From Stappia sp. 28M-7 (lineage in GTDB: Bacteria > Pseudomonadota > Alphaproteobacteria > Rhizobiales > Stappiaceae): a stretch of 64,000 nucleotides of DNA. Location of the stretch: positions 1,674,001 through 1,738,000 of the forward strand of contig NZ_JACMIA010000001.1 in NCBI RefSeq assembly GCF_014252955.1, in the 5' to 3' direction. Under the pieces are notes generated by a model. The model worked only from the letters and a program-made list of their open reading frames with translations. It was not told the origin of the DNA and ran no database searches. A program made the position numbers and the translations under genes. Every line of letters begins with the position of its first letter. Positions within the stretch are counted from its first letter, which is position 1. Below are positions 2,811 to 29,355 of the stretch, piece after piece.

Positions 2811-2864
2811 CGTGTCGGATGGGAGTGGATAGAGCGGGAGAGGAAGGGGAGTGCCTCCGCCTCG

Positions 2865-5405: not shown

Positions 5406-5447
5406 CGGGCCGCCGGGGCGGTCTGGGATGACTGCCCGGGCGGCCCG
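5406..5447 (-). terminator. Long hairpin downstream of pepN
   Basis: An 18-bp stem with two mismatches (arms 5406-5423 and 5430-5447, six-base loop) lies 28 bp after the pepN stop. Read leftward it is followed by TTTCATGTT, a modest U-rich run. Probable terminator. Confidence 0.65.
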
Positions 5448-5475
5448 AAAGCCTGATTCGAACGGGTATTGCGCC

Positions 5476-11292: not shown

Positions 11293-11422
11293 CGAGCCTG
11301 CGCTAGCACTGTTAAGAGCGACAAGGGGGCAAGGGGCAACACGCACTTTCGTGCTGGCACTCGTCTCCTATAATGGCGCGACAACGGAAAACACCGAGGG
11401 CGCCTGGAGGAGGATAAGCCGC

Positions 11423-13315
11423 GTGGATGTGTTGACGATCGACGGGCTCAGTGTCGATTTCCTGACCGGCGAGGGCCGCATACGGGCCGTCGACGACGTG
11501 TCCTTCTCCGTGCCCCGCAACCGGACCGTTGCCCTTGTGGGAGAGTCCGGCTCCGGCAAGACCGTCATTTCCCAGACCATCATGGGGCTGCTGCCGGAAA
11601 AGGCGCAGATCTCCGGCGGCCGTGTGCTGTTCCGGGAGAACGAGACCACCGCACCGGTCGACATCGCAGCCCTCGACCGCAAGGGCGCAGCGATGCGCGC
11701 CATCCGCGGCAACCGCATCGCGATCATCTTTCAGGAGCCGATGACCTCGCTGTCGCCGCTCCACACGATCGGCGACCAGATCGGCGAGGCAGCCGAGCTG
11801 CACCGGGGCGTGAGCGCGCAGGAAGCCCGCGAGCTGACGCAGGAGATGCTGCGGCTGGTGCGCTTTCCCGATCCGGCGCGGGCGCTCGATTCCTATGCCT
11901 TCGAGCTGTCCGGCGGCCTGCGCCAGCGTGCGATGATCGCCATGGCGATGATCTGCCATCCCGCTTTGCTGATCGCCGATGAGCCGACCACGGCGCTCGA
12001 CGTCACCATCCAGGCCGAGATCCTCAAGCTCATCAAGGATGTCCAGGCCGAGCTGCATATGTCGACGCTGCTGATCACCCATGATTTCGGCGTCGTTGCC
12101 AACATGGCGGACGAGGTGGTGGTGATCTATCACGGCCGGATCATGGAGCGTGGCAGTGCGGCCTCGCTCTTTGCAAATCCTCGCCACGACTATCTCAAGG
12201 CGCTGCTTAACGCGGTGCCGCGCTTCGGGATGGAAGAGGGCGAAAGACTGGTGCCGATCCGCCCGATCGAGCCGCACGCGGAGGGCTTCCTCAAGAAGCG
12301 TCAGTCCGAGCGGGCCTGCGCCGTCGGACAGCCGCTGATGAGCATGACCGATGTCACCAAACGCTTCACGACCCGCAAGGGCGGGTTCCTGGGCGGCGGA
12401 ACACGAACGGTTCTTGCACTCGACAACATCAACCTGACGGTCAGGCGCGGCGAGTGTCTCGGCCTGGTCGGCGAGAGCGGCTCCGGCAAGACGACGGCCG
12501 CCAAGGCGATCCTGCGCGCTCTCGAGATCAACGAGGGCGCAATCCGCTACGACTGCGGCGACGGCCCCGTCGATGTTGCCAGCCTGCGGGGAGCGGACCT
12601 GCTGGAATACCGCCGCCGGGTCCAGCTGATCTTCCAGGACCCGTTCTCATCGCTCAACCCGCGCATGACCGTGAACGAGCTGCTGATGGAGCCGCTCGTG
12701 ATCCACAAGGTTGGAACGCCGGAGGAGAGGGCGGAGCGGGTGCGCGAACTGATGCGTCTCGTCGGCCTCGATCCGCGCTTCCTGCGCCGCTATCCGCACT
12801 CGTTCTCCGGCGGGCAGCGCCAGCGCATCGGCATAGCGCGGGCACTCGCGCTCAATCCGGAGTTCATCCTGTGCGACGAGCCGACGTCGGCGCTCGACGT
12901 CTCGGTGCAGGCGCAGATCCTCAACCTCTTGCGGGATCTGAAAAAGGAACTCGGGCTCACCTACCTTTTCGTCAGCCACAATCTTGCGGTCGTGGACTAC
13001 ATCGCCGAAAGGCTGGCCGTGATGTGCCGCGGCCGGGTCGTCGAAGTCGGCAGTACCCGCTCCGTTATCGGAAACCCGCTGCATCCCTATACGCGAGCCC
13101 TGCTGGCCTCCGTTCCCGAACCCGATCTGAACGCGCCGCTGGACTTTGCGGCGCTGGAAGCAGGGCGAGCCTCTGAACCCGATCTCTGGCCAGAGCCCTA
13201 CCGTATCGTCGATGGCGTCCGTCCGGTGCTGGTGGAAATGGAGAAGGATCACTTCGTCTGCGCGCCGGGTCTCGCCGGTGACGGGGCGTCTGCCTCCATG
13301 GAGGCCGCACAATGA
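11423..13315 (+). CDS. ABC importer ATPase with two fused nucleotide-binding domains
   Basis: A 630-residue cytoplasmic ATPase. The first domain has [17 protein letters not shown] and [12 protein letters not shown]; the second has [17 protein letters not shown] and [12 protein letters not shown]. Each has an oligopeptide/dipeptide-type C-terminal extension. This DppD-DppF fusion is organised like YejF. GTG at 11423 is chosen because GGAGGAGG lies just upstream; the same frame runs open to 11351. Its stop overlaps the start of the binding-protein gene (ATGA), showing tight coupling. Both sites look catalytically intact. Confidence 0.92.
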
Positions 13316-15210: not shown

Positions 15211-15249
15211 CGTGAGAATGGCGCTGCGGGGCGCTGGGGGAACCGCTTG

Positions 15250-16269
15250 ATGCTCTACTATATCGTGCGCCGGGTGTTGACGATGATCCCGACGCTGTTC
15301 GTGATCAGCCTGCTGACATTCGTCATCATCGAGCTTCCGGCCGGTGACTACATTTCCAACCAAATTGCAGCGCTGCGGGCGACCGGCGAGAGCGCGTCTA
15401 TAGCCAAGCTCGAGTTCCTGCGGGCGGAGTTTGCACTCGATCGGCCGTTCCTGGAGCGCTATCTGATCTGGATCGGCCTGTGGCCGGGCGTCCACGGCTT
15501 CGACGGTCTGCTGCAAGGCAATTGGGGCTGGTCCTTCGAATACGAGAAACCGGTTTCGGAAGTGGTCGGGCCGACCCTCCCGCTGACCATCGTGCTGAAC
15601 ACTGCGACGATCCTGTTCGTCTATGTCGTCTCCTTCCCGATCGGTATCTACTCGGCGACCCGCCAGTACTCGTGGGGCGACTACGGTTTCACGTTCATCG
15701 GCTATATCGGGCTGGCAACGCCGAACTTCCTGCTCGGTCTGATCATGCTGTACTTCGCCAATCTGTGGTTCGGCCTGTCGGTTGGCGGCCTCATGGCGCC
15801 AGAGTATATCGGCCAGCCATGGAGCATGGGGAAGGCGCTGTCGGTGCTGGCGCACCTGATCGTGCCGACGGTTGTGATCGGAACGGCTGGTACGGCGGCG
15901 ATGATCCGCCGGCTGCGCGCCAACCTGCTGGATGAGCTGCACAAGCAATACGTGACGACGGCGCGCGCCAAGGGCCTGCGCGAATCCCACCTGCTGGTGA
16001 AGTATCCGCTGCGGATGGCGCTCAACCCGTTCATTGCCGATATCGGCAACCTGATCCCCTCGCTCGTCTCCGGCTCCGTCATCGTGTCGGTCGTGCTCAA
16101 CCTGCCGACCGTCGGGCCGGTGCTGCTGAATGCCCTGCAGTCGCAGGACCAGTTTCTGGCCGGCTTCATTCTGCTCTTCGTCGCGGTCCTGACATTGATC
16201 GGCATGCTGGTGTCCGATCTGCTTCTGGCGGTGCTGGATCCGCGTATCCGGCTTGGGGGGAAGGCGTGA
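15250..16269 (+). CDS. ABC importer permease, DppB type
   Basis: A 339-residue inner-membrane protein with the N-terminal MLYYIVRRVLTMIPTLFVISLLTF helix and five further helices. The cytoplasmic EAA loop is seen as RAKGLRESHLLVKYPLRMALNP, and the C-terminus ends in LLLAVLDPRIRLGG. This is the standard oligopeptide permease B layout. ATG at 15250 directly follows an in-frame TTG. The gap to the binding-protein gene is 39 bp and its stop overlaps the next start by one base (TGATG), so it is in the same operon. Confidence 0.92.
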   Translation: MLYYIVRRVLTMIPTLFVISLLTFVIIELPAGDYISNQIAALRATGESASIAKLEFLRAEFALDRPFLERYLIWIGLWPGVHGFDGLLQGNWGWSFEYEKPVSEVVGPTLPLTIVLNTATILFVYVVSFPIGIYSATRQYSWGDYGFTFIGYIGLATPNFLLGLIMLYFANLWFGLSVGGLMAPEYIGQPWSMGKALSVLAHLIVPTVVIGTAGTAAMIRRLRANLLDELHKQYVTTARAKGLRESHLLVKYPLRMALNPFIADIGNLIPSLVSGSVIVSVVLNLPTVGPVLLNALQSQDQFLAGFILLFVAVLTLIGMLVSDLLLAVLDPRIRLGGKA

Positions 16270-17429
16270 TGAACATGCGCAACGAGCCCGAGCACTACGT
16301 CAATCCGGATGCGTTCAACCCGTCTCACGCCGAAACGCTGACCCCGGAGCAGGAACGCTACTACCAGGCCTCGCAGTGGCAGATCATGTGGTGGAAGTTC
16401 CGCCGCCACCGCGTTGCCGTGTGGTCGGGTGTGATCCTCATCCTGTTCTATCTGTGTGTGCCGTTCGCGGAGGTCATCGCTCCCTACTCGCCTAACCAGC
16501 GCTCCAACGATCACCTGTATGCGCCGCCGCAGACGTTGCGCCTCTTCCACGAGGGCTCGTTCGTCGGACCGTTCGTCTATGGGCTGAAGGCGGAAGTCGA
16601 TCTGGAGACGGTTCGCTGGGTCTACACCGAAGACCGGGGGGACGTGCAGCCGCTGCGCTTTTTCTGCTTCGGGCCGCAATACAAGTTCTGGGGCTTGTTC
16701 GACGCTAGCTTCCACCTGGTGTGCCCTGCGAAGGATGGGACGCTCTACCTGCTCGGCACCGACCGGTTGGGGCGTGATGTGCTGTCCGGTCTCGTATACG
16801 GAGCACGCTTGTCGCTGACCGTCGGCTTGATCGGCGTGACCATCTCCATCGTGCTGGGACTGTTCTTCGGCGGGCTTGCCGGCTTTTTCGGCGGAATAAT
16901 CGACAGCGCGATCCAGCGTGTCATCGAGATCCTGCGGTCCCTGCCGGAGCTGCCTCTTTGGATGGCTCTGTCGGCGGCCCTGCCGGTCACCTGGTCGCCC
17001 GTGTGGATCTATCTGGGCATCACGGTGATCCTCGGTCTTCTCGACTGGCCGGGTCTGGCGCGTGCCGTGCGCTCCAAGCTGCTGGCCCTGCGCGAGGAGG
17101 AATATGCCAAGGCCGCACTGCTGATGGGCGCGAAACCGTCGCGTGTCATCCGCAAGCATCTGCTGCCGGGCTTCACTAGCCACATCATCGCATCGGCCTC
17201 GCTGTCGATACCGGCGATGATTCTCGGCGAAACGGCCCTGTCCTATCTGAATCTCGGTCTGCGCCGTCCTGCGGTGTCCTGGGGCGTCTTGCTCAACGAG
17301 GCGCAGGATATCTCCGTTGTGGTCATCTATCCCTGGCTGATGGCGCCGGTTGTTCCCATCATCATCGTGGTGCTTGCATTCAATTTCCTGGGCGACGGTT
17401 TGCGCGACGCGGCCGACCCGTATAAGTGA
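16269..17429 (+). CDS. ABC importer permease, DppC type, with extended N-terminal region
   Basis: A 386-residue inner-membrane protein. After the first TM helix (about 45-65) there is a long extracytoplasmic insert of about 100 residues with two cysteines. The conserved LGTDRLGRDVLSGLVYGARLSL segment and four or five more helices follow. The EAA loop is AALLMGAKPSRVIRKHLLPG. The insert is longer than in dipeptide permeases (about 300 residues in total) and resembles permeases of the Yej or oligosaccharide subgroups. It is the last gene of the four-gene importer operon. Confidence 0.9.
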   Translation: MNMRNEPEHYVNPDAFNPSHAETLTPEQERYYQASQWQIMWWKFRRHRVAVWSGVILILFYLCVPFAEVIAPYSPNQRSNDHLYAPPQTLRLFHEGSFVGPFVYGLKAEVDLETVRWVYTEDRGDVQPLRFFCFGPQYKFWGLFDASFHLVCPAKDGTLYLLGTDRLGRDVLSGLVYGARLSLTVGLIGVTISIVLGLFFGGLAGFFGGIIDSAIQRVIEILRSLPELPLWMALSAALPVTWSPVWIYLGITVILGLLDWPGLARAVRSKLLALREEEYAKAALLMGAKPSRVIRKHLLPGFTSHIIASASLSIPAMILGETALSYLNLGLRRPAVSWGVLLNEAQDISVVVIYPWLMAPVVPIIIVVLAFNFLGDGLRDAADPYK

Positions 17430-17520: not shown

Positions 17521-18114
17521 ATGTCCAAGAACGCATCGACCGCCGACGGCTGGGACGAGGAATATCGGCGCGGGCGCTGGGCCTTCCTTCGCGATCTGCC
17601 CGAAAGCGGTCGTTACGGCATCATCGGTATGTGGCTCGCACTGAACGGGTCGCTTGACCGGGTGCTGGACATCGGTTGCGGCGAAGGCCTGCTGTACGAG
17701 CGTCTGCAGCCTATGGGCATCGGCCGGTATGTCGGTGTCGATCTGGCACCTGCAGCGCTCGGCATCGCCAATGTGGACCCGGAGATCGCGTCGCTGCGCG
17801 CCGGCGACCTGCACACTTTCGCACCCGAGAAGGGCGAGACTTTCTCCGCCATCGTCTTCAACGAGGTGCTGCATTTTTCCGACGATCCGGCCGCGGCCGT
17901 GGCGCGTTATGTGCCGTTCCTGGCGCCGGGCGGCGTGATCGCCGTTTCGATGTATTCGCCCAAGCGCCTGGAATCGGGCGCCAACCGTCTGATCGCCCGG
18001 CTGTGGGAAGCGACCGACGGACCGGATTGGGAAGTTCTCGACGACTACCGCCTGACCTCCGACAAGAAGAACGTCACCTGGCGGCTGCGGCTGATCAGGC
18101 CGTCGGCTGGCTGA
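17521..18114 (+). CDS. Class I SAM-dependent methyltransferase
   Basis: A 197-residue cytoplasmic protein. The SAM-binding motif is VLDIGCGEGLLYERL, followed by YVGVDLAP, and a motif-IV-like IVFNEVLHFSDDP. Length and motif spacing fit a minimal Rossmann methyltransferase of the type that modifies small molecules or sugars. The ATG at 17521 has GGAAG upstream; the longer frame back to 17350 overlaps the permease gene. It sits next to deacetylase and glycosyltransferase genes, and its last 20 bp overlap the convergent deacetylase gene. A role in decorating the same glycan is inferred from position only. Confidence 0.8.
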   Translation: MSKNASTADGWDEEYRRGRWAFLRDLPESGRYGIIGMWLALNGSLDRVLDIGCGEGLLYERLQPMGIGRYVGVDLAPAALGIANVDPEIASLRAGDLHTFAPEKGETFSAIVFNEVLHFSDDPAAAVARYVPFLAPGGVIAVSMYSPKRLESGANRLIARLWEATDGPDWEVLDDYRLTSDKKNVTWRLRLIRPSAG

Positions 18115-18904
18115 CCGGAGGCAGGCCGTGCGCCGCGCGCTCGGCGTCCAGCAGCTCCAGGATGCGGGCAAAGCGGGCGCCGGGATGCGCCCGCAAGATG
18201 TCGAACGTCCTCTCCAGGAACTCGAAGCAGGCATCGTTTTGCGCGAGGTGATGGGAGAGGACGCCGAGCGGTTCTGCCGGGTTCGTGCGTCGTCGCGCCA
18301 GATGGTAGTCGAAGCGCAGGCCGGCCGAATGCCAGCCGATGAAACGTCGCTCCTTCTTCCACTTGATCATGTCCACATGCGTCTGCACCTGCATAAGCGC
18401 GCGCGGATGGAACTGCGTGAAGGTCGACAGGCCTGAAAGCCCGGCCTCCGCGAGGCGGGCGGAGATACGCGGCGCGATACGGTTCCACGGCGGCACCATG
18501 ACCGGCACGAAGCGTGTGCCGAACAGGTTCGTCAGGCGTTTGTGGCCGCAGGCAAGCAGCGCAACCGCTTCGTCGGGATCGCGCCGGCGGCCGAACTCGG
18601 CCGCTTTTTCTCCTCGCGACTTGTCCTGAAAGTTGCGGTGCTCGTATCCATGCTGAAGGACAGAGGCAAAGCGCTCGCCTGACAGACGGTCGGCAAGGGC
18701 CTCGGTCGCATTCGCGGGTATCACGGCCAGCGCAACTTCGACTTCATAAGTGTTCGCGATCCGAAGCAGCCGCTCGAGCGCCGGGGTCGGCTCGATTGCG
18801 TCGTCATCGCGCCACCAGATCGGGACGGCGAGGCCACGTTCGGCGAACCAGTCGAGATGCCGGACGAGACCGCCCCGATAGGCGCGAAACTCTGCCTCGC
18901 TCAT
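18095..18904 (-). CDS. Polysaccharide deacetylase-like protein
   Basis: A 269-residue protein with WWRDDDAIEPTPALERLL near the N-terminus and LQHGYEHRN near residue 85. These match the Asp-Asp and His-x-x-x-His metal-binding motifs of carbohydrate esterase family 4. A later VPPWNRI matches the usual substrate-groove motif. It has no signal peptide, so it would act in the cytoplasm or on a lipid-linked glycan. The gene is the last of a leftward run of five and overlaps the preceding glycosyltransferase gene by 4 bp (ATGA). Confidence 0.75.
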   Translation of the reverse strand: MSEAEFRAYRGGLVRHLDWFAERGLAVPIWWRDDDAIEPTPALERLLRIANTYEVEVALAVIPANATEALADRLSGERFASVLQHGYEHRNFQDKSRGEKAAEFGRRRDPDEAVALLACGHKRLTNLFGTRFVPVMVPPWNRIAPRISARLAEAGLSGLSTFTQFHPRALMQVQTHVDMIKWKKERRFIGWHSAGLRFDYHLARRRTNPAEPLGVLSHHLAQNDACFEFLERTFDILRAHPGARFARILELLDAERAAHGLPPVSQPTA

Positions 18905-20055
18905 CGGCGGGCCTCCAGCGCGTCCAGCAGGATTTCGGCGGCCGTTTCCGCTCCACCGAAGCGGACCGGGATATCGCGGCGCGGAAGGACCAATGCGTCA
19001 TCGGCAGCCTTTGCCAAGGCCTCTGGCGTTAGCCCCTTTTCCGGGACAGTGACGGCGCGCCCATGGCGCACCAGGGCATCGGCGCGCTGCTGTTGCTCCG
19101 TTTCCTTGATCTGGGCAAAGGGCACGAGCACGCTGGGAACGCCGGCATGGAGGATGTCGAGCACGGTGTTGTATCCCGCCTGGCTGATCGAAAGGCGTGC
19201 CCGTGCCAGCAGCGAGGGAAAGTCCCGCCGTGCCCTCTCGACGATGATCGTGTCCCCGCCCTGTGCGGCAAGCGCTGAAAAGCTCTCCTCGTCGATGTCG
19301 TGGCCGGCAAGGAGGCGCCAGCGACAGTCGCCGGCAAGACGGGAGAGGGCAGGGGCCTCGAGAGCCGCTCTGAGCAGCCCGATGCCGACGGCGCCGCCGC
19401 CGCAGGAAACGATGACCTCGTCGCGGCCGTCATCGCCGGGGGCGTCTCTACCGCCCGTGCCGGTCTCGGCAAAGCCCGTATAGCGCAGCAGATGCGACAC
19501 GCGGTCGGCGAAAGGAAAACTGTCCTCCAGCCGTATGAAGGACGGGTCGGAATGAACGAGGACAAGATCGTAGGCGGCCAGCGCCCGCTCGGCCATTTCC
19601 TCTTCCTTCCAGATCTCCTGCTTTCGTACCAGGATGTCGCGGATGGAGGAGGCGATGAGCGGCGGACGAGACAAAGCCTTGGCGGCGTCGACCAGGTTTT
19701 GCATCTCGAACGCGAATGGGCGTCGCCCGAACGGCCAGGTCTCGGTGAGCAACAGGTCGTAAGGTCGTGCCTGAAAGGCGTTCAGCGTTTCCCTGGTCCG
19801 GGCAGCCTTCCACGCTTCGTCGATCTCGCGTCCTTCCTGCGTCAGGAAGGTCTTGAACCGAGCGTCCTGCGCCCTGACCGGCGGCAGCTCGATGACATCG
19901 AGGCCCGAGGTGTCGAGCAGCGGCGGCAGGCTGTTTCCGGTCGCCAGGGTCACCGAAACGCCGCGCGCTGCGAGCGCGCGGCCGATAGCGGCAGCACGCA
20001 GTGCGTGGCCGGTGCCGAGCAGGTGCTGGACATGGATGAAGGCGGAGCGTGTCAT
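18901..20055 (-). CDS. Predicted glycosyltransferase, MurG/GT28-like fold (COG4671-like)
   Basis: A 384-residue cytoplasmic GT-B protein. The N-terminal IHVQHLLGTGHALRAAAIGRAL carries the G-x-G-H loop seen in MurG-like enzymes. The C-terminal half has VIVSCGGGAVG and the nucleotide-sugar region ISQAGYNTVLDILHAGVPSVLVPF. It begins at ATG 20055, overlapping the upstream gene by 4 bp; a longer frame to 20490 lies inside that gene. It is paralogous in layout to the gene at 22504-23724. Donor and acceptor are unknown. Confidence 0.8.
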   Translation of the reverse strand: MTRSAFIHVQHLLGTGHALRAAAIGRALAARGVSVTLATGNSLPPLLDTSGLDVIELPPVRAQDARFKTFLTQEGREIDEAWKAARTRETLNAFQARPYDLLLTETWPFGRRPFAFEMQNLVDAAKALSRPPLIASSIRDILVRKQEIWKEEEMAERALAAYDLVLVHSDPSFIRLEDSFPFADRVSHLLRYTGFAETGTGGRDAPGDDGRDEVIVSCGGGAVGIGLLRAALEAPALSRLAGDCRWRLLAGHDIDEESFSALAAQGGDTIIVERARRDFPSLLARARLSISQAGYNTVLDILHAGVPSVLVPFAQIKETEQQQRADALVRHGRAVTVPEKGLTPEALAKAADDALVLPRRDIPVRFGGAETAAEILLDALEARR

Positions 20056-21179
20056 TGCGGCGAAGCGGTAGCGCGCAGCGCGAAGTTGCGCAAGGCTCGC
20101 CCCAGCAGCCTGTCGAGGCTGGCAGCCCCGCTGGCTAGCGTGTGGCGCTCGCGGATGTGATTGCGGGCAGCAAGCCCCATGTCCGATGCGCGACCGGGGT
20201 TCGAGATGAGCACCGCGAGGTTCTGCGCGAAAGCCACGGCATCTCCCTCCGCAGACAGAAGCCCGGTCGTGCCATGGGCGACGATGTCGGGCACGCCGAA
20301 CGTGTCGCCTCCCACAATGGCAAGGCCGGCGGCCTGAGCCTCCAGGAAGACCAGGCCGAATGCCTCGCGGATCGCCGGCCAGACGAAGAGGTCGTGCGAG
20401 GCGCAAAGGGCCGGGATCTCTTCTCCCGCGACAGCGCCCATGAAGGTGACCGGATGGCGGGCCAGCAGCGCCTCGACCTCTGCCCTGCAAGGCCCGTCGC
20501 CAGCAACGGTGAGGGTGAAGCGGGACGAGGCGGGAAGTTGGTCCAGCGCCTCTGTAAGCAGGCGGTAAGAGGCGAGTTTCGCTCCCTCGCGCATCATGCC
20601 GATGGCGAGCAGCCGGACGGGCTCACCGTCTCGGCGCGGGATGCGCGGCGCCTGCAGGAACCGGCTTGCATCGAGAAACGGGGCAAGGACGGCAAGGCGT
20701 TCCGCTGGAACGACCGCTGCAAGGCACTCCCTGTCAGCCCTGTGCATGGCGGCAACCAGATCGGCGCGGTCGAGAGCTGCGTCGGCCGCAGCAAAGCCAT
20801 AGGCCCAGTCTCCAGTCCTGCGCTTCGGGGCGCGGCTTGCCTCGACAACCACATAGGGTATGCCCAGCCGTGAAGCGATCGCTGGGCCGATCCAGTCGGG
20901 AGCCTTGTGGTAGAGGTGATAGGTCAGGAAGATATCGGGGCGGTAGCCTGACGCCTCCCATGAGGACAGGACACGGCTCGCCTCCGCAAGTGCTGCCTGC
21001 TCGACCTCTTGCTGCGCATCGTTGCCGCCAGTCGCCCTCCACGAGCGAAATCGCGTGGCGACCGTCACTTCGTGTCCGGCAGTTTCCAGCGCCTGGACAA
21101 TCAGCCGTCCCATGGTCCGGTCCCCGGATGGCACCGGATCGTCCAGCGGCTTCATGGGGGCTGTGAAGGCAACACGCAT
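20052..21179 (-). CDS. Glycosyltransferase, GT4-type GT-B fold
   Basis: A 375-residue protein. The C-terminal half has LLAIGMMREGAKLASYRLLTEAL and FTLTVAGDGP. Next comes FMGAVAGEEIPALCASHDLFVWPAIREAFGLVFLEAQAAGLAIVGGD, in which the E-x7-E pattern (REAFGLVFLE) binds the nucleotide sugar. No TM helices are seen. It is flanked by glycosyltransferase genes on both sides and overlaps the next by 4 bp, so it belongs to one transcript. Sugar specificity is not predictable here. Confidence 0.85.
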   Translation of the reverse strand: MRVAFTAPMKPLDDPVPSGDRTMGRLIVQALETAGHEVTVATRFRSWRATGGNDAQQEVEQAALAEASRVLSSWEASGYRPDIFLTYHLYHKAPDWIGPAIASRLGIPYVVVEASRAPKRRTGDWAYGFAAADAALDRADLVAAMHRADRECLAAVVPAERLAVLAPFLDASRFLQAPRIPRRDGEPVRLLAIGMMREGAKLASYRLLTEALDQLPASSRFTLTVAGDGPCRAEVEALLARHPVTFMGAVAGEEIPALCASHDLFVWPAIREAFGLVFLEAQAAGLAIVGGDTFGVPDIVAHGTTGLLSAEGDAVAFAQNLAVLISNPGRASDMGLAARNHIRERHTLASGAASLDRLLGRALRNFALRATASPQ

Positions 21180-21198
21180 GCCGGTGTCCTGGATACCT

Positions 21199-22440
21199 CT
21201 AAGAGGCTTTTGCCTGGTCCTTCAGAAGGGAAGCGAACCGGACCGCCAGCCGGTCGAGCCCCGGATCCGTCGAAAAGCGCTGGCGAACATCCTTGGAGGC
21301 AGCCCGGCCAAGCCGCTCGCGCATCGCCGGATCGGCTATGAGCGAGGCAAGCGCGTCACGCAGGCGCGTGCGGTCTCCAGGCGGGACCAGCAGCCCGGTC
21401 TCTCCGCTGCGAATGAGCTCCGGAATTGCCGAGACGTCGGTGGCCAGGCAGCACAGGCCCATCGCCTGGGCCTCCATCAAGACGTTGGGTAGGCCATCGC
21501 GATCGCCGGACTTCGCCACCTTCGAGGCGAGGACAAAGAGATCGGCACGCTGTGTGGCTTCGATCACGTCCTCGCGCGGGCGTGCCCCGTGCCATGTGAC
21601 GTGGTCGGAGATGCCGAGGGAGCCGGCGAGATCCGCCAGGCGGGTCGCCTGCTCTCCGCCGCCGATATGCTCGAAGTGCCAGTCCAGTCCTTCTGGTAAG
21701 GCTGCCAGAGCCGCCAGAAGGTCGTCGTAGCCCTTTTTTTCCACGGCCCTGCCCACCGACATGATCCGGACCGGGCCTGCCTGTCCGCCGTCGCCTTTGC
21801 CGTAATTCTGACGGCCTGGGAAGGGGGAGAAGTCGAGCCCGTGATAGACCAGCTCCAGCTTGTCCGGCTGGGCGCAGAGCGAGCGGAGATGGTCGAGGTT
21901 GACCCGGGTGCAGGTGACACCCCAGGCGGCATCGTCGAGCTTCACCCGCAGATCCCATTCCTCGCTGGTCCAGATGTCCTTGGCATGGGCAGAAAACGAC
22001 CACCCGCGGCCCGAAAGGTGCGCCGCATACCGCGCGACCGAACAGGGCGTGTGCAGGTAATGGGTATGGATCCAGGCGATATCGCTGGGCAGTTCATGTG
22101 CGAAGACGCAGGCCTGAGCCCAGCGTCGCTGGCGATTGGCATTCGATTCCTTCGCGAAATCGGCCATGAACAGAGCATGGGCATCGCGATAAGTCGGTTG
22201 ACGTTCGGCCCAGCGTTTTGCCCGGGCGACGCGCGCTGCGTCGTCCTTCACATATTCCGGAAGATAGAGCACGTCGGCCGATATCTGCCGGTGCACTTCG
22301 TGGATAAAGGGGTCGTAAGGCTGGCGCAGGGCGACGATCAGCTGCCCGATCCCCCGGCGCTCAAGGCCTAGGATTTCCTGCGCGATGAAGGTCTCCGACA
22401 GGCGCGGATACCCTTTTACGACGACGGCAATGCGGGACAT
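21199..22440 (-). CDS. Glycosyltransferase, GT4-type
   Basis: A 413-residue GT-B enzyme. The N-terminus (VVVKGYPRLSETFIAQEI) is the acceptor-domain motif common in exopolysaccharide and colanic-acid GT4 enzymes. The C-terminal domain has RIMSVGRAVEKKGYDDLLAAL and a donor-binding region with DGLPNVLMEAQAMGLCCLATD (E-x7-E variant), then SGETGLLVPPGD. It is the second gene of the leftward operon, 63 bp after the first and 19 bp before the third. Confidence 0.87.
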   Translation of the reverse strand: MSRIAVVVKGYPRLSETFIAQEILGLERRGIGQLIVALRQPYDPFIHEVHRQISADVLYLPEYVKDDAARVARAKRWAERQPTYRDAHALFMADFAKESNANRQRRWAQACVFAHELPSDIAWIHTHYLHTPCSVARYAAHLSGRGWSFSAHAKDIWTSEEWDLRVKLDDAAWGVTCTRVNLDHLRSLCAQPDKLELVYHGLDFSPFPGRQNYGKGDGGQAGPVRIMSVGRAVEKKGYDDLLAALAALPEGLDWHFEHIGGGEQATRLADLAGSLGISDHVTWHGARPREDVIEATQRADLFVLASKVAKSGDRDGLPNVLMEAQAMGLCCLATDVSAIPELIRSGETGLLVPPGDRTRLRDALASLIADPAMRERLGRAASKDVRQRFSTDPGLDRLAVRFASLLKDQAKAS

Positions 22441-22503
22441 GCGATGCGAAGGTCCTGAAATCGTGAAGGTCGGTTCCGACCGGTGCGGATGAACGCGGAT
22501 CGC

Positions 22504-23724
22504 TCAGGCGCGCACGGACGCGAGTTCCCTGACAGCGCCGCTCCGCTGCGCAAGGATGCGCTCCACCCGGTCGCCGATCACGTCCAGGCCGCCGAGCAGG
22601 TTGTCTATGCCGGCGGTGGAGGGGGGCGCGAGCCACGGTAGTTCCGCCAGTGCGTCGATCATCTTGTCGACATCGGGGTAATCATCGATCGGCAGCACCT
22701 TCAGCAGACCGATGGTCTCGGCGCGCGTTGCGCGGATCGACTGTTCGCGGCGGGGAACGACACGCGGCACGAGAAGCGTCGGCTTGTCGAAGGACAGAAT
22801 CTCGCAGAACGTGTTGTAGCCGCCCATTCCCACGATCGCCTTGGCACCGGCCATATAGGGCTCGATGGTCGGAAGGAACCGCAGGATGTGCACGTCGCGA
22901 AGCGATTCTGCCCGTGCTTGGAACTCTGCCGCGGCCTGTGCCGGCATGAACGGGCCGAGTACGATCAGAGCGGGAAAGAGCGGTTGCGCGCGCGATTCGT
23001 AAGCGCGCATCACCCAGTCGACCATCTCCACACCGTCGCCACCGCCACCCGGCGTGACCAGAATGTACGGTTCGTCGTCGAAGGGCAGGGGCTCGGTGAT
23101 CCGCGCATCGGCCGGTACGTCACGGCGCAGATAGCCTGTGTTCACTGCCTTCGCGTGAACATTTGCGGACAGGCCCATGCCCGCCAGCGGGTCGTGCAGG
23201 TCGGGTGGGCCGTAGACCCAGATCTCGTCGTAGAGGCTCTCCAGGGCCGGGTCGACGTTCTTGCGCGTCCACTCTTCACGCAGCACCGTCGGGTCGTCCA
23301 TCACGTCGCGCAGGCCCAGGATCAGGCGGGTGTTGCCACGCTCCTTGAGCATCTCCAGCGTGCCGAGGATCTCGCCGCGCAGGCCGAGAGGTTCCTTGTC
23401 GACGATCAGGATGTCCGGGTCGAAGACCTTGGCCGTGTGCTCGATGATCGAGGTGCGGATGGCAAGGATGTGCTCGATGTTGAGCGACAGCGACAGCGGC
23501 GTGTACTCGCCGTTGCGCAGCTTGATCACACCGGGAATGCGGACGAAGTCGACGCGCGAGCGAAACTCGAAGCTGCCGATGATCGGCGATCCCGACAGGA
23601 TCAGTACGGACATGTCCGAAAAACGACGGGTCAGCGCATGCGCGATGGTACGGCACCGTCGCAGATGACCGAGCCCGAAGGAATCATGGCTGTAGATCAG
23701 CACTTTCGGGGCGCTATTGGTCAT
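22504..23724 (-). CDS. Predicted glycosyltransferase, MurG/GT28-like fold (COG4671-like)
   Basis: A 406-residue protein starting with VLIYSHDSFGLGHLRRCRTIAHAL, the G-x-G-H loop of GT28-like enzymes. The C-terminal ILVTPGGGGDG and AIVGMGGYNTFCEILSFDKPTLLVPRV form the donor site. It is the first gene of the five-gene leftward operon and is divergent, across 198 bp, from the ABC-exporter-like gene. A second protein with the same layout lies at 18901-20055. The function is unknown beyond sugar transfer. Confidence 0.82.
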   Translation of the reverse strand: MTNSAPKVLIYSHDSFGLGHLRRCRTIAHALTRRFSDMSVLILSGSPIIGSFEFRSRVDFVRIPGVIKLRNGEYTPLSLSLNIEHILAIRTSIIEHTAKVFDPDILIVDKEPLGLRGEILGTLEMLKERGNTRLILGLRDVMDDPTVLREEWTRKNVDPALESLYDEIWVYGPPDLHDPLAGMGLSANVHAKAVNTGYLRRDVPADARITEPLPFDDEPYILVTPGGGGDGVEMVDWVMRAYESRAQPLFPALIVLGPFMPAQAAAEFQARAESLRDVHILRFLPTIEPYMAGAKAIVGMGGYNTFCEILSFDKPTLLVPRVVPRREQSIRATRAETIGLLKVLPIDDYPDVDKMIDALAELPWLAPPSTAGIDNLLGGLDVIGDRVERILAQRSGAVRELASVRA

Positions 23725-23922
23725 GCCTACCCATTCGGTCAGCGCGTCGGTACTGCCGCACGACCACGCGTCCCCATTGTCAGTCTTTCTCTATCTTCCG
23801 ATTGCCGCCGATGCAAGGGCGAGGGCTATTGTTACTTGTAGCGATTTCGCTGGGCTGCGCTATGATGCGCGTGAGACCTGCCGGATGGTGAACAGGCCCG
23901 CGACCCGATAACGCGACCGACG
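23725..23922. promoter_or_regulatory. Divergent promoter region of the glycosyltransferase and ABC-like operons
   Basis: This 198-bp gap must hold start sites for both operons. I see no strong palindrome or tandem repeat in it. Local AT content is raised around 23780-23850, as in a promoter. Confidence 0.35.
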
Positions 23923-26517
23923 ATGGAAAAAAGCCTTTTCAAGTTCATCTGGCGATACAGCGCCCGTCAGCAACTGACGATCCTGCTCATCACGGTGATC
24001 GCCTATCCGGTCACCTATGTGCTGCTGGAACTGCCCAAGCTCATCGTCAACGACGCAATTCAGGGCGAGAACTTCCCGCGCGAGGTCTATGGGCTCGAGT
24101 TCGACCAGGTGTCCTACCTCGTCGTGCTCTGTCTCGCCTTTCTCGGCCTCGTGATCCTGTCCAACGGCATCAAGCTCGCCTTGAACGTCTACAAGGGGCG
24201 GCTGGGCGAGCGCATGTTGCGCCGCCTACGATTCGAGCTGTTCCAACGCGTCCTGCGTTTCCGACTGCCGCATTTCAAGAAGGTCAGCTCCGGCGAGATC
24301 ATCCCGATGATCACATCGGAGGTGGAAGACGTCGGTGGCTTCATCGGCGAGGCCGTGGCGCTTCCTGCCTACCAGGGCGGCATGCTGGCCGTACAGATCG
24401 GCTTCATCTTCATGCAGGACCCCTTGCTCGGGCTGGCGGCCATCTCGTCCTACCCGATGCAGGCCTATGTCATCCCGAAGCTGCAGAAGCGGGTCGTCCT
24501 GCTGTCGCGCCAACGGGTGCGCAACGTGCGCGTGATCGCCGACAAGATCGGCGAGAGCATCGGTGGCGTGTCGGAAATTCACGCCAACGATGCGTCCGCC
24601 TGGCACTCCGCGGACATCTCCGAGCGCCTCTACACGAATTACCAGATCCGCTTCAAGATCTTCAACTGGAAGTATTTCATCAAGTTTTTGAACAACTTCA
24701 TGAACCAGTTGACGCCGTTCCTGTTCTATCTGATCGGCGGTTGGCTGGTGATCGAAGGTGATCTTTCGATCGGTGCGCTGCTTGCCGTCATCGCTGCCTA
24801 CAAGGATCTTGCCGGCCCCTGGAAGGAGCTGCTGGCCTACTATCAGATGGTTGCGGACGTCGAGGTGAAGTACCAGACCGTGGTCGAGAACTTCGATCCT
24901 GCCGACATCTATCCGGTCACGCGGCTGACGGACGACAACGCGGACGTAGATCTGTCCGGCGATCTGGTGATGCGCAGCGTCAGCTTCTCCGGCGGCGCTG
25001 CGGGGCAGGAAGTCTTCGATGTCTCGTTGACGGTACCATCCGGGGCTCAGGCGGCGGTCGCCGGGCCGGACGGATCCGGTCGGTCCGAAGTCCTGCAGCT
25101 CGCAGCCGGCTTGCTGGGAGCGACGAGCGGGCGGGTCGAGATCGGCGGGCACAATCTCGACAATCTGGGCGAGGCGGTGCTGGGCCGTCAGATAGCCTAT
25201 GTCGGTCCTTCGGTGCATGTGTGGACCGGTACGGTACGAGACAACATTCTCTATGGCCTGCGCCATCGCCCGTTGCGCGTCCCAGAGCGGGAAGGCGAGG
25301 ACAAGGCCAGATACGCTCGCTGGCTGGCCGAGGCGCGTGCAACGGAGAACCCGGATTACGACATCCAGGCCGAATGGGAGGACTTCCAGGCCGCCGGTGT
25401 CGATACGATTGACGACCTGGACTCGCGCGCGCTTGAGCTCATCGAAATGACAGGCCTTGCGGCGGATGTTTTCCGAATGGGATTGCAGTCGCCCATCGAC
25501 CCGGCGCGCCATCCGGAGTTCGCCGACCGCGTGCTTGCCGTGCGCAGGGCGCTGGCCGACAGGGTTGCCGGAGACGGCCGTCTCGCTGCGATGGTCGAGT
25601 TGTGGGATGTCGAGCGGTTCAACAACTCTGCCAGCCTTGCCGAAAACCTGCTCTTCGCAATGCCGGTTGATCCGACGGTCGGCATCTACACCCTGGCATC
25701 GGACCCGGATGTTGCTGCTGCGCTCGACGAGACGGGCTTGCGGAGCCGGCTGGTCGAGATCGGCCTGAAGATCGCCGGCACGATGGTCGAGCTGTTCGCA
25801 AATGTCAGCGACGATTCCGGACTGCTCGGGGATTACTCCTTCATCACGCTCGACGAACTGCCGGAGTTCGACAGGATCGTGCGCACCTCTCGCCTTGAAT
25901 CGTCGAAGGGGCAGCTGCGCGATCCCGACCAGGAGCGGCTGATCGGCCTGGCCTTCAAGCTGATTCCTGCCCGTCACCGCCTCGGCGTCCTGGACGATGC
26001 CATGCGTGAGGAGATCGTTGCGGCGCGCGCGGCCTTCCACAAGCGGCTGAACGGCGACCAGAGCCGCTTCGTTGTCTTCGACCGCGACAGTTTCATCGCG
26101 CCGATGTCCATCGAGGACAATCTGCTGTTCGGGCGCCCACGCGTCGACCGGCGCGATGCGCGCGAGAAGATCGACGGTCTCATCCGGTCCATCGTCGACG
26201 AAATGGAACTGCGCCGTCCGATCGTGCGTGCGGGGCTCGACTTCCATGTCGGTGTCGCGGGATCGCGTCTGTCCACGGGGCAGCGGCGGCGCGTTGCGCT
26301 GGTGCGGGCGCTGATGAAGAACGCTCCGATCACCATCCTTGACGATACCGCGGGCAGCGGCAGCGACGACGACAAGGCCTTGCGCGCCTCGATCCGCAAG
26401 GCGCTCAAGGGCCGCATGTTGCTTTTCGGCGCGCCCAATTTGATCGTGGCGGGCGAATTCGACCATAGTATCGTTATGAACCAGGGACGTGTTGTGGATG
26501 AGGAAGGTGCCGGATGA
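23923..26517 (+). CDS. ABC-exporter-like membrane protein with degenerate, enlarged ATPase domain
   Basis: An 864-residue protein. Residues about 15-330 are an exporter-type TM domain (six helices by eye). The ATPase part is strongly altered. Walker A is GPDGSGRS (381-388), with arginine for the essential lysine. The Q-loop glutamine is missing in YVGPSVHVW (about 425). The catalytic Glu after Walker B is Asp (ILDD, 807-808). The H-loop reads LLFGAPN without histidine. Only the signature survives, as LSTGQ (783-787). About 335 residues separate Q-loop and signature, against about 50-60 normally. That insert repeats the post-Q-loop motif: TVRDNILYG, SLAENLLFA, SIEDNLLFG. ATP hydrolysis is doubtful; a regulatory or structural membrane role is possible. 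Confidence 0.8.
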   Translation: MEKSLFKFIWRYSARQQLTILLITVIAYPVTYVLLELPKLIVNDAIQGENFPREVYGLEFDQVSYLVVLCLAFLGLVILSNGIKLALNVYKGRLGERMLRRLRFELFQRVLRFRLPHFKKVSSGEIIPMITSEVEDVGGFIGEAVALPAYQGGMLAVQIGFIFMQDPLLGLAAISSYPMQAYVIPKLQKRVVLLSRQRVRNVRVIADKIGESIGGVSEIHANDASAWHSADISERLYTNYQIRFKIFNWKYFIKFLNNFMNQLTPFLFYLIGGWLVIEGDLSIGALLAVIAAYKDLAGPWKELLAYYQMVADVEVKYQTVVENFDPADIYPVTRLTDDNADVDLSGDLVMRSVSFSGGAAGQEVFDVSLTVPSGAQAAVAGPDGSGRSEVLQLAAGLLGATSGRVEIGGHNLDNLGEAVLGRQIAYVGPSVHVWTGTVRDNILYGLRHRPLRVPEREGEDKARYARWLAEARATENPDYDIQAEWEDFQAAGVDTIDDLDSRALELIEMTGLAADVFRMGLQSPIDPARHPEFADRVLAVRRALADRVAGDGRLAAMVELWDVERFNNSASLAENLLFAMPVDPTVGIYTLASDPDVAAALDETGLRSRLVEIGLKIAGTMVELFANVSDDSGLLGDYSFITLDELPEFDRIVRTSRLESSKGQLRDPDQERLIGLAFKLIPARHRLGVLDDAMREEIVAARAAFHKRLNGDQSRFVVFDRDSFIAPMSIEDNLLFGRPRVDRRDAREKIDGLIRSIVDEMELRRPIVRAGLDFHVGVAGSRLSTGQRRRVALVRALMKNAPITILDDTAGSGSDDDKALRASIRKALKGRMLLFGAPNLIVAGEFDHSIVMNQGRVVDEEGAG

Positions 26518-26606
26518 AGCATCTGCTCGCCCCTGTTGACGCCCCTTACCTGACTGCGGATGAGGCCGGTACCGTTCCGGCCGCACTCCCGAAGGAGGAC
26601 ATGTGA
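26514..26606 (+). CDS. Candidate 30-residue ORF coupled to both neighbours
   Basis: ATG at 26514 overlaps the stop of the ABC-like gene (ATGA) and has AGGAAGG at 26501-26507, six bases upstream. The ORF of 30 codons ends in ATGTGA at 26601-26606, overlapping the GTG start of the next gene at 26603. The peptide starts MKHLLAPVDAPYL and is acidic with no TM helix. A good ribosome-binding site and overlap at both ends favour translation. It may be a real small protein or only a coupling device. Confidence 0.45.
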   Translation: MKHLLAPVDAPYLTADEAGTVPAALPKEDM

Positions 26607-27061
26607 CCCTTGACGCGGAAGTCGATGCACTGCGGCGCGTACCGCTTTTCCGAGGCATCGACGCCACCAAGCTGAGGCTCCTGGCCTTCATTTCCGACCG
26701 GACGAGTTTTACGCCGGGCGAGCACCTTTGCGATCAGGGGGACGAGGGCGATTCCGCGTTCATCATCCTTGCCGGTGAGGCCGAGGTGCGGGTGAGCACG
26801 CCGGACGGCGAACGCGCAGTGGCGCGGCTGGGCGAGAATTCGATAGTTGGCGAGATCGCGATCCTGTGCGACGTTCCCCGGACGGCCACTGTCGTAGCTA
26901 CCAAGGAGATGGACGTCCTCACCGTTTCGAAGGACGATTTCCTCCGTCTCCTCAAGGAGTTCCCGGATATGTCGCTAGAGGTGATGCGTACGCTCGCCAA
27001 ACGCCTGGATCGTACTACCCAGGATCTCGTCGCACTCCAGTCCTCGGGCGGCAGGGCGTGA
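26603..27061 (+). CDS. Cyclic nucleotide-binding domain protein without DNA-binding domain
   Basis: A 152-residue protein that is almost only a cNMP-binding beta-barrel. The phosphate-binding cassette GEIAILCDVPRTATV keeps the Gly-Glu and Arg-Thr-Ala residues that hold the ribose and cyclic phosphate. C-terminal helices (EVMRTLAKRLDRTTQDLVAL) resemble the CRP dimer helix, but no helix-turn-helix follows, so it is not a transcription factor. GTG at 26603 has AGGAGG at 26593-26598. A class III cyclase is two genes downstream. It is probably a cAMP-responsive partner of the adjacent ABC-like protein. Confidence 0.85.
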   Translation: MTLDAEVDALRRVPLFRGIDATKLRLLAFISDRTSFTPGEHLCDQGDEGDSAFIILAGEAEVRVSTPDGERAVARLGENSIVGEIAILCDVPRTATVVATKEMDVLTVSKDDFLRLLKEFPDMSLEVMRTLAKRLDRTTQDLVALQSSGGRA

Positions 27062-27080
27062 AGACGGGGATGGCCTTTCT

Positions 27081-27899
27081 GTGACCCTTTCGCTGAAGCT
27101 GTGGGGCGTGCGCGGATCGACGCCGACGCCCGGTCCATCGACACTGCGCTACGGCGGAGAAACGACGTGTTTCGAAATTCACGCCGGCGATGACATCTTC
27201 ATGATCGACTGCGGATCGGGTGCGCGCAGTCTCGGTATGGAACTGCACGCCCGCCCGCCGGCGGAATACGATCTCTTCTTCACCCACACCCATCTCGATC
27301 ATATCTGTGGGTTGCCGTTCTTCACCCCTGCCTATGACGATAGGTTTTCCATCAATGCCTGGGCCGGGCATTTTGCCGACAGTTCCGGGCTGATGGATAT
27401 CATCTGTCGCATCATGTCTCCGCCGATCTTCCCCGTGGCGGCCAACACGCTGCGCGCCGTGACTTTCCGCAATTTCCGCGCTGGCGGCGAGGTCGAGCGA
27501 AAGGGCGCTGCACACCTGACGACGATTGCGCTCAATCATCCGGGCGGCGCGACGGGCTACCGGATCGCGCATGAGGGCAAATCGATCTGCGTGATCACCG
27601 ATCACGAGCACGGCGATGCCGAAGTGGATCGGGCTGTCCGGCGCTTCGTGGAAGGCGCCGACGTGATGATCTACGATGCCATGTACACGGACCAGGAATA
27701 CGCCCGCTACGCCGGTTGGGGGCACTCCACCTGGCAGAAGGGTGTGGAATTGGCGCTGGAAGCCGGCGTTTCGCAGATCGTCCTGCATCACCATGACCCT
27801 AAGAGGTCCGACGATGCGCTCGACGCCATCGGCGAGGAAGCTGCGCGCCGGCACGCCGGCGCCGTCGTCGGGCGTGAGGGGATGGTTGTCGTTCCCTGA
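27081..27899 (+). CDS. Metallo-beta-lactamase-fold hydrolase
   Basis: A 272-residue protein with a full dinuclear metal site: HTHLDH near residue 75, a histidine in NHPGG, an aspartate in MIYDAMYTD and a histidine in IVLHHHD. The N-terminal LWGVRGSTPTPGPSTLRYGGET is typical of the RNase Z/PhnP-like branch, whose members are often phosphodiesterases. It starts at GTG 27081, 19 bp after the cNMP-binding gene. Given a cNMP sensor upstream and a cyclase downstream, a cyclic-nucleotide phosphodiesterase role is attractive but unproven. Confidence 0.82.
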   Translation: MTLSLKLWGVRGSTPTPGPSTLRYGGETTCFEIHAGDDIFMIDCGSGARSLGMELHARPPAEYDLFFTHTHLDHICGLPFFTPAYDDRFSINAWAGHFADSSGLMDIICRIMSPPIFPVAANTLRAVTFRNFRAGGEVERKGAAHLTTIALNHPGGATGYRIAHEGKSICVITDHEHGDAEVDRAVRRFVEGADVMIYDAMYTDQEYARYAGWGHSTWQKGVELALEAGVSQIVLHHHDPKRSDDALDAIGEEAARRHAGAVVGREGMVVVP

Positions 27900-28023
27900 C
27901 CCGCGGGGCGATGTATCCTTTTGCAAGGGCGTGACGGCGAGGCATTCTATGCAGCAAAACGTCATGCGATGAGGCCGCGAGGGCATCTGGGCTCTTGGGG
28001 GCGTTCTGGCGAGGGGAGGGGCG

Positions 28024-29355
28024 TTGGCACAAGCCGATAACAGGGGCGACCCCGCAGGCGGCGTTCCGGCGCGGGTGCGATCCGAAATCGCTCAGCGTGA
28101 AAGCGAGGCAGAGCGCCTGATCGGCTGGATCCAGCTGGCGATGGTGCTGTTCTTTGCAGTGCTTTACACGCTCGCGCCCCGGGCGGAAGGCGGCGGCGGA
28201 TTCAACTTCGTCCCCCTTGCTCTTGGCGCCTACTTCCTCTTCACGATCCTGCGCCTGGTCCTGTCGTACCGGATGGTCCTGCCGTTTTGGTATCTGGTGA
28301 TCTCGATCATCGTCGACGTGGCGCTGTTGTGCGGGCTGATCTTCTCTTTCCACATCCAGTACGCCCAGCCGGCAACCTTCTATCTGAAGGCGCCGACGCT
28401 GATGTATCTGTTCCTCTTCATATCGTTGCGGGCGCTGCGCTTCGAACCGCGCTTCGTGCTGATCACCGGTCTTGTCGGAGCGCTCGGCTGGGGAGCGCTC
28501 GTGCTCTACGCCATCGTCCAGGGCATGGGGACCATGTCCATCACCCGCAACTACGTTGAGTACCTGACCTCCAACGCGATCCTTATCGGCGCGGAACTGG
28601 ACAAGGTAATCGTCGTGCTCGGTGTCACGATGTGCCTCTCTGTCGCGCTTTACCGCGGTCGCAGGATGTTCTTCGAGGCGGTGCGCGATCATACGGCGGC
28701 CGAAGACCTGCGACGGTTCTTCGCGCCAGAGGTCGCCCGGTCGATCACCGGCGCCGAGGAGGAACTGGTGGCCGGGCAGGGCAGCCTGCGCGATGTCGCG
28801 GTCATGATGGTCGATATCCGCGGCTTTACCCGTATTGCGGCGAGCCTGCCTCCCGAGACCGTGATGGTGGTCCTCTCCCGATACCAGGAATCTGTGCTCG
28901 AGGTGATTGCGCGCCACGGCGGCGAAGTCGATAAGTTTCTCGGCGACGGAGTTCTTGCAACCTTCGGAGCTGCGCGGGCGAGCTCGACGGCGGTTGCGGA
29001 CGCCCTGCGCGCTGGCATTGAACTGCCGGAGACGTTTGCCGCCCTGGCGCCGGAACTTTCGGCTCTCGGCTGGCCGGAGCCATTGCGGGCAGGCGCGGCC
29101 ATTGCGTCCGGCCCGGTCACGGTCGGGGTCGTCGGTGCAGCCGGCCGGCTGGAGTTCACCGTTATCGGAGACGCGGTGAACCGGGCGGCAAAGCTGGAAG
29201 ATGCCAACAAGGGGCAGGGCTCCATCGTGCTTACGGACCGCGCGACGTATGAGGCTGCTCTCAAGCAGGGAACCCCGGATTTCGGGCCGGAAATTCGACC
29301 TTGTCAGGTCGTTCCCGGACTGTCCGAACCGCTCGATCTCGTTGTTCTCGCATGA
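28024..29355 (+). CDS. Membrane class III nucleotidyl cyclase
   Basis: A 443-residue protein with about six predicted TM helices in residues 35-220 and a C-terminal cyclase domain. Metal-binding aspartates are in VDIRGFT and GDGVLATFG. Substrate-determining residues are Lys in VDKFLGD and Thr in FTVIGDAVN, the class IIIb pattern predicting cAMP. The usual transition-state arginine appears as lysine in VNRAAKLE, a conservative change. TTG at 28024 is supported by GAGGGGAGGGG just upstream. It follows the metallo-hydrolase gene by 124 bp and is the last gene of the rightward run. Confidence 0.83.
   Translation: MAQADNRGDPAGGVPARVRSEIAQRESEAERLIGWIQLAMVLFFAVLYTLAPRAEGGGGFNFVPLALGAYFLFTILRLVLSYRMVLPFWYLVISIIVDVALLCGLIFSFHIQYAQPATFYLKAPTLMYLFLFISLRALRFEPRFVLITGLVGALGWGALVLYAIVQGMGTMSITRNYVEYLTSNAILIGAELDKVIVVLGVTMCLSVALYRGRRMFFEAVRDHTAAEDLRRFFAPEVARSITGAEEELVAGQGSLRDVAVMMVDIRGFTRIAASLPPETVMVVLSRYQESVLEVIARHGGEVDKFLGDGVLATFGAARASSTAVADALRAGIELPETFAALAPELSALGWPEPLRAGAAIASGPVTVGVVGAAGRLEFTVIGDAVNRAAKLEDANKGQGSIVLTDRATYEAALKQGTPDFGPEIRPCQVVPGLSEPLDLVVLA

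Follow-up and report, generated by a model that had tools for sequence, protein, structure and literature searches.

The window analysed here is a 64-kb stretch of the 5.1 Mb genome of Stappia sp. 28M-7. In it, genes for a CE4-like deacetylase and four glycosyltransferases, two of GT28 type and two of GT4 type, run divergently from genes for a degenerate ABC-exporter-like protein (ABC), a stand-alone cyclic-nucleotide (cNMP)-binding protein (CNB), an MBL-fold hydrolase (MBL) and a membrane cyclase, and an importer with its own substrate-binding protein (SBP) is adjacent (Table 1). The ABC, CNB, glycosyltransferase, CE4-like and importer genes very probably form one functional system. The coordinates and Pfam matches bear out the content that an initial annotation had given to the two divergent runs, as well as its remark that flippase, polymerase and ABC-2 exporter are lacking: no Pfam match to Wzx, Wzy, an ABC-2 permease or a synthase was found among the window genes scanned. 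The overlapping starts and stops it described for both runs are present in the left run, with ATGA overlaps at GT4b/GT28b and GT28b/CE4, and not in the right run, where ABC, CNB, MBL and cyclase are separated by gaps of about 85, 19 and 124 bp. Its locus, placed at 17521-29355, cut off the importer at 11351-17429, although this is part of the system, and missed a histidine phosphatase and other partners.

Table 1. Features of the locus in the Stappia sp. 28M-7 window, with positions counted from the first nucleotide of the window.
Feature	Position	Strand	Domain matches and remarks
impATP, importer ATPase with two fused domains	11351..13315	+	Pfam ABC_tran x2 and oligo_HPY
Importer substrate-binding protein (SBP), SBP_bac_5 family	13312..15210	+	PF00496, 181.9 bits
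Importer permease B (permB)	15247..16269	+	PF00528
Importer permease C (permC)	16266..17429	+	PF00528 and OppC_N
S-adenosylmethionine (SAM) methyltransferase, peripheral	17521..18114	+	PF13489/PF08241
CE4-like deacetylase	18095..18904	-	weak Pfam match; invariant WWRDDD, HG..H, PWNR, H.D, HH
GT28b, MurG-like glycosyltransferase	18901..20055	-	PF04101, 49.9 bits
GT4b glycosyltransferase	20052..21179	-	PF13692, PF00534
GT4a glycosyltransferase	21199..22440	-	PF00534, 122.7 bits
GT28a (P0002) glycosyltransferase	22504..23724	-	PF04101, 27.8 bits
Divergent intergenic region, 198 bp	23725..23922		between GT28a and ABC
Degenerate ABC-exporter-like protein, ABC (P0001)	23923..26517	+	PF00664 and PF00005
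CNB, stand-alone cNMP-binding protein, 152 aa	26603..27061	+	PF00027 only, 78.6 bits
MBL-fold hydrolase, optional	27081..27899	+	PF12706
Membrane class III cyclase, optional	28024..29355	+	PF00211, 43.2 bits; six hydrophobic segments

The distribution of the two arms was compared in a draw of 240 genomes of the class, with thresholds of E ≤ 1e-60 for ABC and E ≤ 1e-40 for GT28a. ABC was found in 78 genomes and GT28a in 77; 74 carried both, 4 ABC only, 3 GT28a only and 159 neither (Jaccard 0.91). The arms are thus not distributed independently, and the proposal of the initial annotation that the glycan arm and the CNB-linked ABC arm are one unit held up. The genomes with ABC only were G104, G131, G229 and G270, and those with GT28a only were G085 (86% complete), G184 and G130, whose match has 34% identity and may belong to another family. 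The control, an SBP also encoded in the window, was present in 56/240 genomes, 40 of them in common with ABC (Jaccard 0.43). Because this control reached a Fisher p of 6e-12 against ABC, Fisher p alone is weak evidence, and we relied on the Jaccard index, within-genus contrasts and gene order.

Similar results were obtained at other depths of sampling. In a set of 61 genomes from the family and the order, ABC orthologues were present in 37/37 family genomes, fragmented in two of them (G022 and G027), and, at 35-55% identity, in 9/24 genomes of the order outside the family. GT28a at orthologue strength was found in the same 37 family genomes (fragmentary in G027) and in 8/24 order genomes, all 8 with ABC; G042 had ABC and a weak GT28a match only. 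A draw of 299 genomes from the phylum gave 22 with ABC (21 of the same class), 24 with GT28a and 21 with both; the GT28a-only genomes G130, G387 and G526 had 34-36% matches, and the single ABC-only genome, G408, had a partial match. Genera of mixed ABC status were concordant, with both genes present or both absent in 5 and 3 genomes of g237, 1 and 3 of g234, and 1 and 1 of g33, these counts covering the listed genomes, with genomes lacking a match listed in part. Genus g32 had no ABC, and the weak GT28a match of G130 falls there. Joint presence is not mere linkage, since ABC and GT28a lie more than 1 Mb apart on one contig in G228 and on separate contigs in G449 and G574; on one contig they are far apart also in G191.

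Gene order was compared in near loci (L100-L125, at least 51% identity) and far loci (L126-L179, at most 48%), a split which, like the bit-score thresholds, was chosen by the analyst. A locus counted as flank-qualified when its sequence ran 9 kb or more before ABC and 1.5 kb or more beyond it (25 near, 35 far). All 25 near loci carried CE4, the four glycosyltransferases, CNB and MBL, 21 carried the cyclase, and 11 had permC within the fetched flank. The 35 far loci had CNB (35), GT4a (34), GT4b (32), GT28b (32), a histidine phosphatase (HP, 32), GT28a (30), CE4 (30), impATP (29), a small membrane protein, M180 (28), SBP (23), a second methyltransferase (PF12692, 18), the cyclase (5) and MBL (0). 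The order in distant loci was GT28a-GT4a-GT4b-HP-GT28b-CE4-M180-impATP-SBP-permB-permC, with impATP nearby and on the same strand as CE4. In L152 and on Azospirillum lipoferum plasmid 4, most system genes form one co-directional run. The gene order recurs across families and orders, beyond chance.

In eight longer distant stretches (L192-L199) the cyclase gene converges on the series permC-permB-SBP-impATP-M180-CE4-GT28b-HP-GT4b-GT4a, to the extent that the stretch covers it. permB was present in 8/8; L194 had no cyclase match, L196 had no CE4 match, no M180-type open reading frame (ORF) was listed for L193, L197 or L199, and extra sequence separates cyclase and permC in L195, L196 and L197. 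Six stretches (L192, L194-L198) have an MBL homologue near the cyclase or the importer, and in four of them an ORF of about 285 aa stands beside it, with a Methyltransf_24 domain in both that were scanned. A response-regulator-like ORF was also seen 0.2-1.6 kb before MBL (L192:4946-5638, L195:1302-1985, L196:1422-2105 and L198:4238-4966), and the protein of L198 has Response_reg and Trans_reg_C domains.

The methyltransferase at 17521, which the initial annotation had counted with the left run, is on the + strand and convergent with the deacetylase gene, and so lies outside that run. It is tail-to-tail with the CE4 gene, has a homologue in 11/26 near and 0/54 far loci, and is peripheral to the system.

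The importer has the matches expected of an SBP family 5 transporter (PF00496, BPD_transp_1 and ABC_tran), and we regard it as part of the system. Of the 240 class genomes, 78 had permC; 73 had both permC and ABC, 5 ABC only and 5 permC only (Jaccard 0.88). It was present in 17/18 family genomes, the exception being G027, where other system genes are also broken. Measured start to start, permC was within 10 kb of ABC in 9 of these 17 genomes, about 15 kb away in G022, and farther away or on another contig in 7. The best PDB sequence matches of the SBP were 5ipw, SPH1118 (7veq, 7ver) and an alpha-galactoside-binding protein (6epy), which suggests that the importer may take up oligosaccharides.

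ABC carries a predicted ABC-exporter membrane domain (PF00664, 65.9 bits against a threshold of 28), and ABCB proteins headed its PDB profile matches. MsbA (TIGR02203) was its best NCBIfam match, but the score of 168.7 bits is far short of the 602 required for that family. The residues scored for an active exporter, which we take to be Walker A Lys and Ser/Thr, Walker B Asp and Glu, and the H-loop His, are Arg, Ser, Asp, Asp and Pro in the window protein, with Walker A Lys replaced by Arg and H-loop His by Pro. At least one of the five canonical residues was missing in 46/47 family sequences, the window's included; Walker A Lys together with Ser/Thr was kept in 3/47, Walker B Asp together with Glu in 8/47, and the H-loop His in 18/47.

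Mean identity to the window ABC was 0.62 in the transmembrane domain (TMD) and 0.38-0.41 in the other segments, the borders of which were chosen by the analyst. A segment of about 265 residues (456-720) sits within the nucleotide-binding domain (NBD) part. In four within-genus comparisons, the TMD had a ratio of nonsynonymous to synonymous substitution rates (dN/dS) of 0.01-0.07 and the other segments one of 0.025-0.24; these ratios are approximate, as some dS values were near 1. The NBD, at 0.025-0.20, is under purifying selection. Judged by its residues, ABC is degenerate as an ATPase, yet it is not decaying, because dN/dS is low across the TMD and the other segments. More generally, comparison with one or two same-genus relatives gave dN/dS of 0.21 or lower for each of twelve window genes, the neighbouring SDR gene among them; this set excludes the importer ATPase, SBP and permB, the L070 and L071 stretches ending before permB. 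Broken copies were seen in two family genomes: the ABC of G022 (L080) is interrupted around residue 458, and in G027 (L081) ABC, GT28a and cyclase are each in pieces and permC is missing. These breaks, that of the G022 ABC likewise, may be decay or assembly errors.

CNB adjoins ABC in 26/26 near and 52/54 far loci, and in four records the two form a single ABC::CNB reading frame (L087, 1025 aa; L180, 1048; L182, 1031; L183, 1027). All 101 distinct CNB sequences keep the phosphate Arg and 98 keep the ribose Glu, residues that we assume to mark the cNMP site, and the site is therefore predicted to bind a cyclic nucleotide. The residue after the phosphate Arg is Thr in 92/101, which by the usual rules does not decide between cyclic AMP (cAMP) and cGMP. 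No helix-turn-helix or other DNA-binding domain was found in CNB with Pfam, PF00027 being the only match, which sets it apart from CRP/FNR transcription factors. No convincing CRP-type site was found in the 198-bp divergent region either, the best candidate having 3 mismatches.

Cyclase sequences were included when they aligned over more than 350 residues with an identity of at least 38%, and, as for CNB, the counts refer to a set from which duplicates were removed (39 sequences). The two metal-binding Asp positions were kept in 39/39, and the base-selecting positions are Lys in 33/39 and Thr in 39/39; these positions and the transition-state residues are assigned by their usual roles in such cyclases. 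The cyclase was present in 45/240 class genomes, 40 of which also had ABC or permC, and in 21/45 it lay within 10 kb of one of them, start to start. MBL homologues were found in 26/26 near loci and, within the fetched flanks, in 1/54 far loci. MBL scored 43.1 bits against the phosphodiesterase model NF041851 (cut-off 400) and was far under the curated RNase Z cut-off too. The cyclase and MBL are recurrent in the system, but optional. A second cyclase gene, with dCache, HAMP and class III cyclase domains, lies at 9318-11225 directly upstream of the importer ATPase and on the same strand; its matches in 29 related loci averaged a weak 70 bits.

Among the glycan-building genes, GT28a and GT28b both passed the PF04101 gathering score (22 bits), and GT28b, with 41.7 bits, is below the 250.25 cut-off of the curated MurG NCBIfam model. 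GT28a gave dN/dS of 0.007 and 0.066 in same-genus comparisons. The CE4-like protein scored 13.5 bits against PF01522 (gathering score 23.1), and 7/42 CE4-like sequences reached a PF01522 match at E 0.01. Its Asp/His motif columns were invariant in 42/42 sequences including the window's, and they correspond to what we take to be the Asp/His/His metal site of CE4 deacetylases; a metal site is accordingly predicted. Glycan assembly is probably cytosolic, because hydropathy gave no hydrophobic segment in the CE4-like protein (N-terminus included), GT4a, GT4b or GT28a, and an internal one only in GT28b. In one genome (L095, G009:C19) a second GT28a-like gene with 55% identity was seen near a partial ABC match (29%), possibly a paralogous locus.

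We consider the following mechanism the best account of the system as a whole, with a probability of roughly 0.4. The two GT28-type and two GT4-type enzymes, together with the CE4-like deacetylase and, in most distant loci, the histidine phosphatase, would build a short glycan or glycolipid in the cytoplasm that bears at least one free amino sugar, being partly deacetylated. ABC would move this product, or gate its movement, across the inner membrane, and nucleotide-loaded CNB would act on ABC directly by protein contact, not as a transcription factor. Fragments of this glycan in oligosaccharide form, or its building blocks, would re-enter the cell through the SBP-dependent importer. In genomes that have them, the membrane cyclase would be the source of the nucleotide and the MBL hydrolase may dispose of it. 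A bolder form of this proposal, which we regard as unlikely, is that ABC has become a second-messenger-gated glycolipid channel or flippase of ABC fold, in which ATP-driven transport was traded for control through a dedicated and sometimes fused CNB, in a closed export and re-import loop with its own glycan pathway and importer, through which the cell would sense or recycle the glycan it makes.

Several findings weigh against this mechanism. Walker A Lys is retained in 18/47 ABC sequences, and one sequence (L171) has all five scored residues, so that some members of the family may hydrolyse ATP; the residue calls rest on one alignment. A family-wide loss of Walker A Lys was true of the first 23 sequences read and was abandoned with the wider set. 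The binding motif is altered in two of the four fused CNBs (L180 and L182). In the cyclase the transition-state Asn was kept in 39/39 sequences, and the Arg was replaced by Lys in 33/39. At E ≤ 1e-50 the cyclase was found in 37/78 ABC genomes and was missing from 41; its overlap with ABC (Jaccard 0.43) is no tighter than that of the control SBP, so that the case for its membership is adjacency. Five class genomes (G074, G075, G113, G195 and G296) carry a cyclase without ABC or permC, which indicates that it has other uses. The importer could carry peptides instead, and a polysaccharide lyase gene, described below, was confined to the Sinorhizobium meliloti stretches among those compared. The cAMP circuit proposed in the initial annotation therefore survives in part. 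CNB is constant beside ABC with its site residues kept, and a cAMP role of CNB and cyclase is plausible from these residues; the idea that the cyclase makes and MBL removes the nucleotide is at best optional, given the cyclase in fewer than all ABC genomes and the single MBL among the far loci.

The rival that survives best, which we judge somewhat unlikely, is that the unit is real and that ABC is not a transporter; it would be a SUR-like membrane receptor or scaffold, with a pseudo-NBD and CNB that anchor the glycosyltransferases or the importer or turn them on and off, and the glycan would exit otherwise or stay inside. The loss of catalytic residues in most ABC sequences, the long segment inside the NBD part, the purifying selection still acting on the NBD and the constant CNB partner all fit such a role, whereas the TMD is the most conserved part of ABC and matches exporters, and Walker A Lys persists in more than a third of the sequences.

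The product might alternatively be a small diffusible glycan, a signal or scavenging molecule exported by ABC under cNMP control, captured by SBP and taken up again, which would let the cell sense or reclaim what it has made. Four glycosyltransferases with no polymerase among the genes scanned, permC in 73/78 ABC genomes and the cyclase near permC in many genomes agree with this; we nevertheless think it improbable, as the small size of the product and any receptor or response would have to be assumed, and the lyase by the S. meliloti copy suggests a polymer. It is very improbable that this is a conventional locus for a surface polysaccharide, of Wzx/Wzy, ABC-2 or synthase type, next to genes that have nothing to do with it: GT4 and GT28 enzymes and deacetylases are common in polysaccharide loci, but none of those export or polymerization genes was matched here, and the neighbours are recurrent and co-occurring. 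That chance or clonal history has placed two independent arms side by side is hardly credible, for although co-occurrence is partly inherited by descent and the control was also Fisher-significant, the Jaccard index was 0.91 against 0.43 for the control, the arms are jointly present or absent within three genera, and they co-occur even when far apart.

A related form of the system is present on pSymB of S. meliloti, at 836.7-846.7 kb in strain 1021. This copy comprises a cyclase (a 28% match to the window's), a polysaccharide lyase, an importer, GT28a, GT4a, GT28b, ABC, CNB and an FkbM-type methyltransferase. In the S. meliloti stretch L185 the Polysacc_lyase gene lies at 5102-6070 and a nucleotide sugar dehydrogenase gene at 1978-3315; the dehydrogenase was found in S. 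meliloti and, as a fragment at the edge of the stretch, in L094. The lyase and the dehydrogenase beside this copy suggest that a polymer is turned over in the S. meliloti lineage. Azospirillum is also among the carriers (L132, L133 and L135), and ABC relatives lie on many Rhizobium plasmids.

Two candidates for identity with described S. meliloti loci were set aside. The msbA2 operon (SMb21188-21191) is reported to comprise glycosyltransferase genes and an ABC exporter, together with a polysaccharide described as unknown (PMC3687685); an msbA2 fragment maps to 938 kb on pSymB, away from the system copy. The S. meliloti CyaC paper gives cyaC TetR and LysR neighbours and another gene set (PMC10463352). 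A paper on the Clr regulon names a polysaccharide cluster nodP2-smb21248, which could not be tied to this locus (PMC5498481). No description of the system was found in the part consulted of the openly licensed literature that was searched by keywords and gene names, and one under other naming could escape such a search.

The system resembles several known ones in part. Like MsbA and lipid-linked glycan flippases, it has an exporter-type TMD and glycosyltransferase neighbours, but the window ABC differs in its degenerate ATPase residues, its insert of about 265 residues, its constant CNB partner and a score far below the MsbA cut-off. Wzm/Wzt (ABC-2) export is alike in concept as ABC-linked glycan export, whereas here no ABC-2 permease was found and the exporter is of the fused TMD-NBD type. 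The importer shares its SBP_bac_5 relation and OppB/OppC-type permeases with the alpha-galactoside-binding protein (6epy) and SPH1118-type importers; unlike those, it is encoded with glycosyltransferases and a pseudo-ABC exporter. CRP/FNR regulators share the cNMP-binding domain, and public annotation labels the S. meliloti CNB homologue Crp/Fnr, but CNB has no detected DNA-binding domain and is the partner, sometimes the fused domain, of a membrane protein.

About one third of the sampled class genomes (78/240) carry the system. If the proposed mechanism is true, it would bring to light an uncharacterised glycan and an ABC-exporter family whose degenerate ATPase residues are kept under selection, and it would provide a direct, non-transcriptional target of a cyclic nucleotide. 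Since S. meliloti and Azospirillum are genetically tractable, the function of the system and its gating would be directly testable in these carriers.

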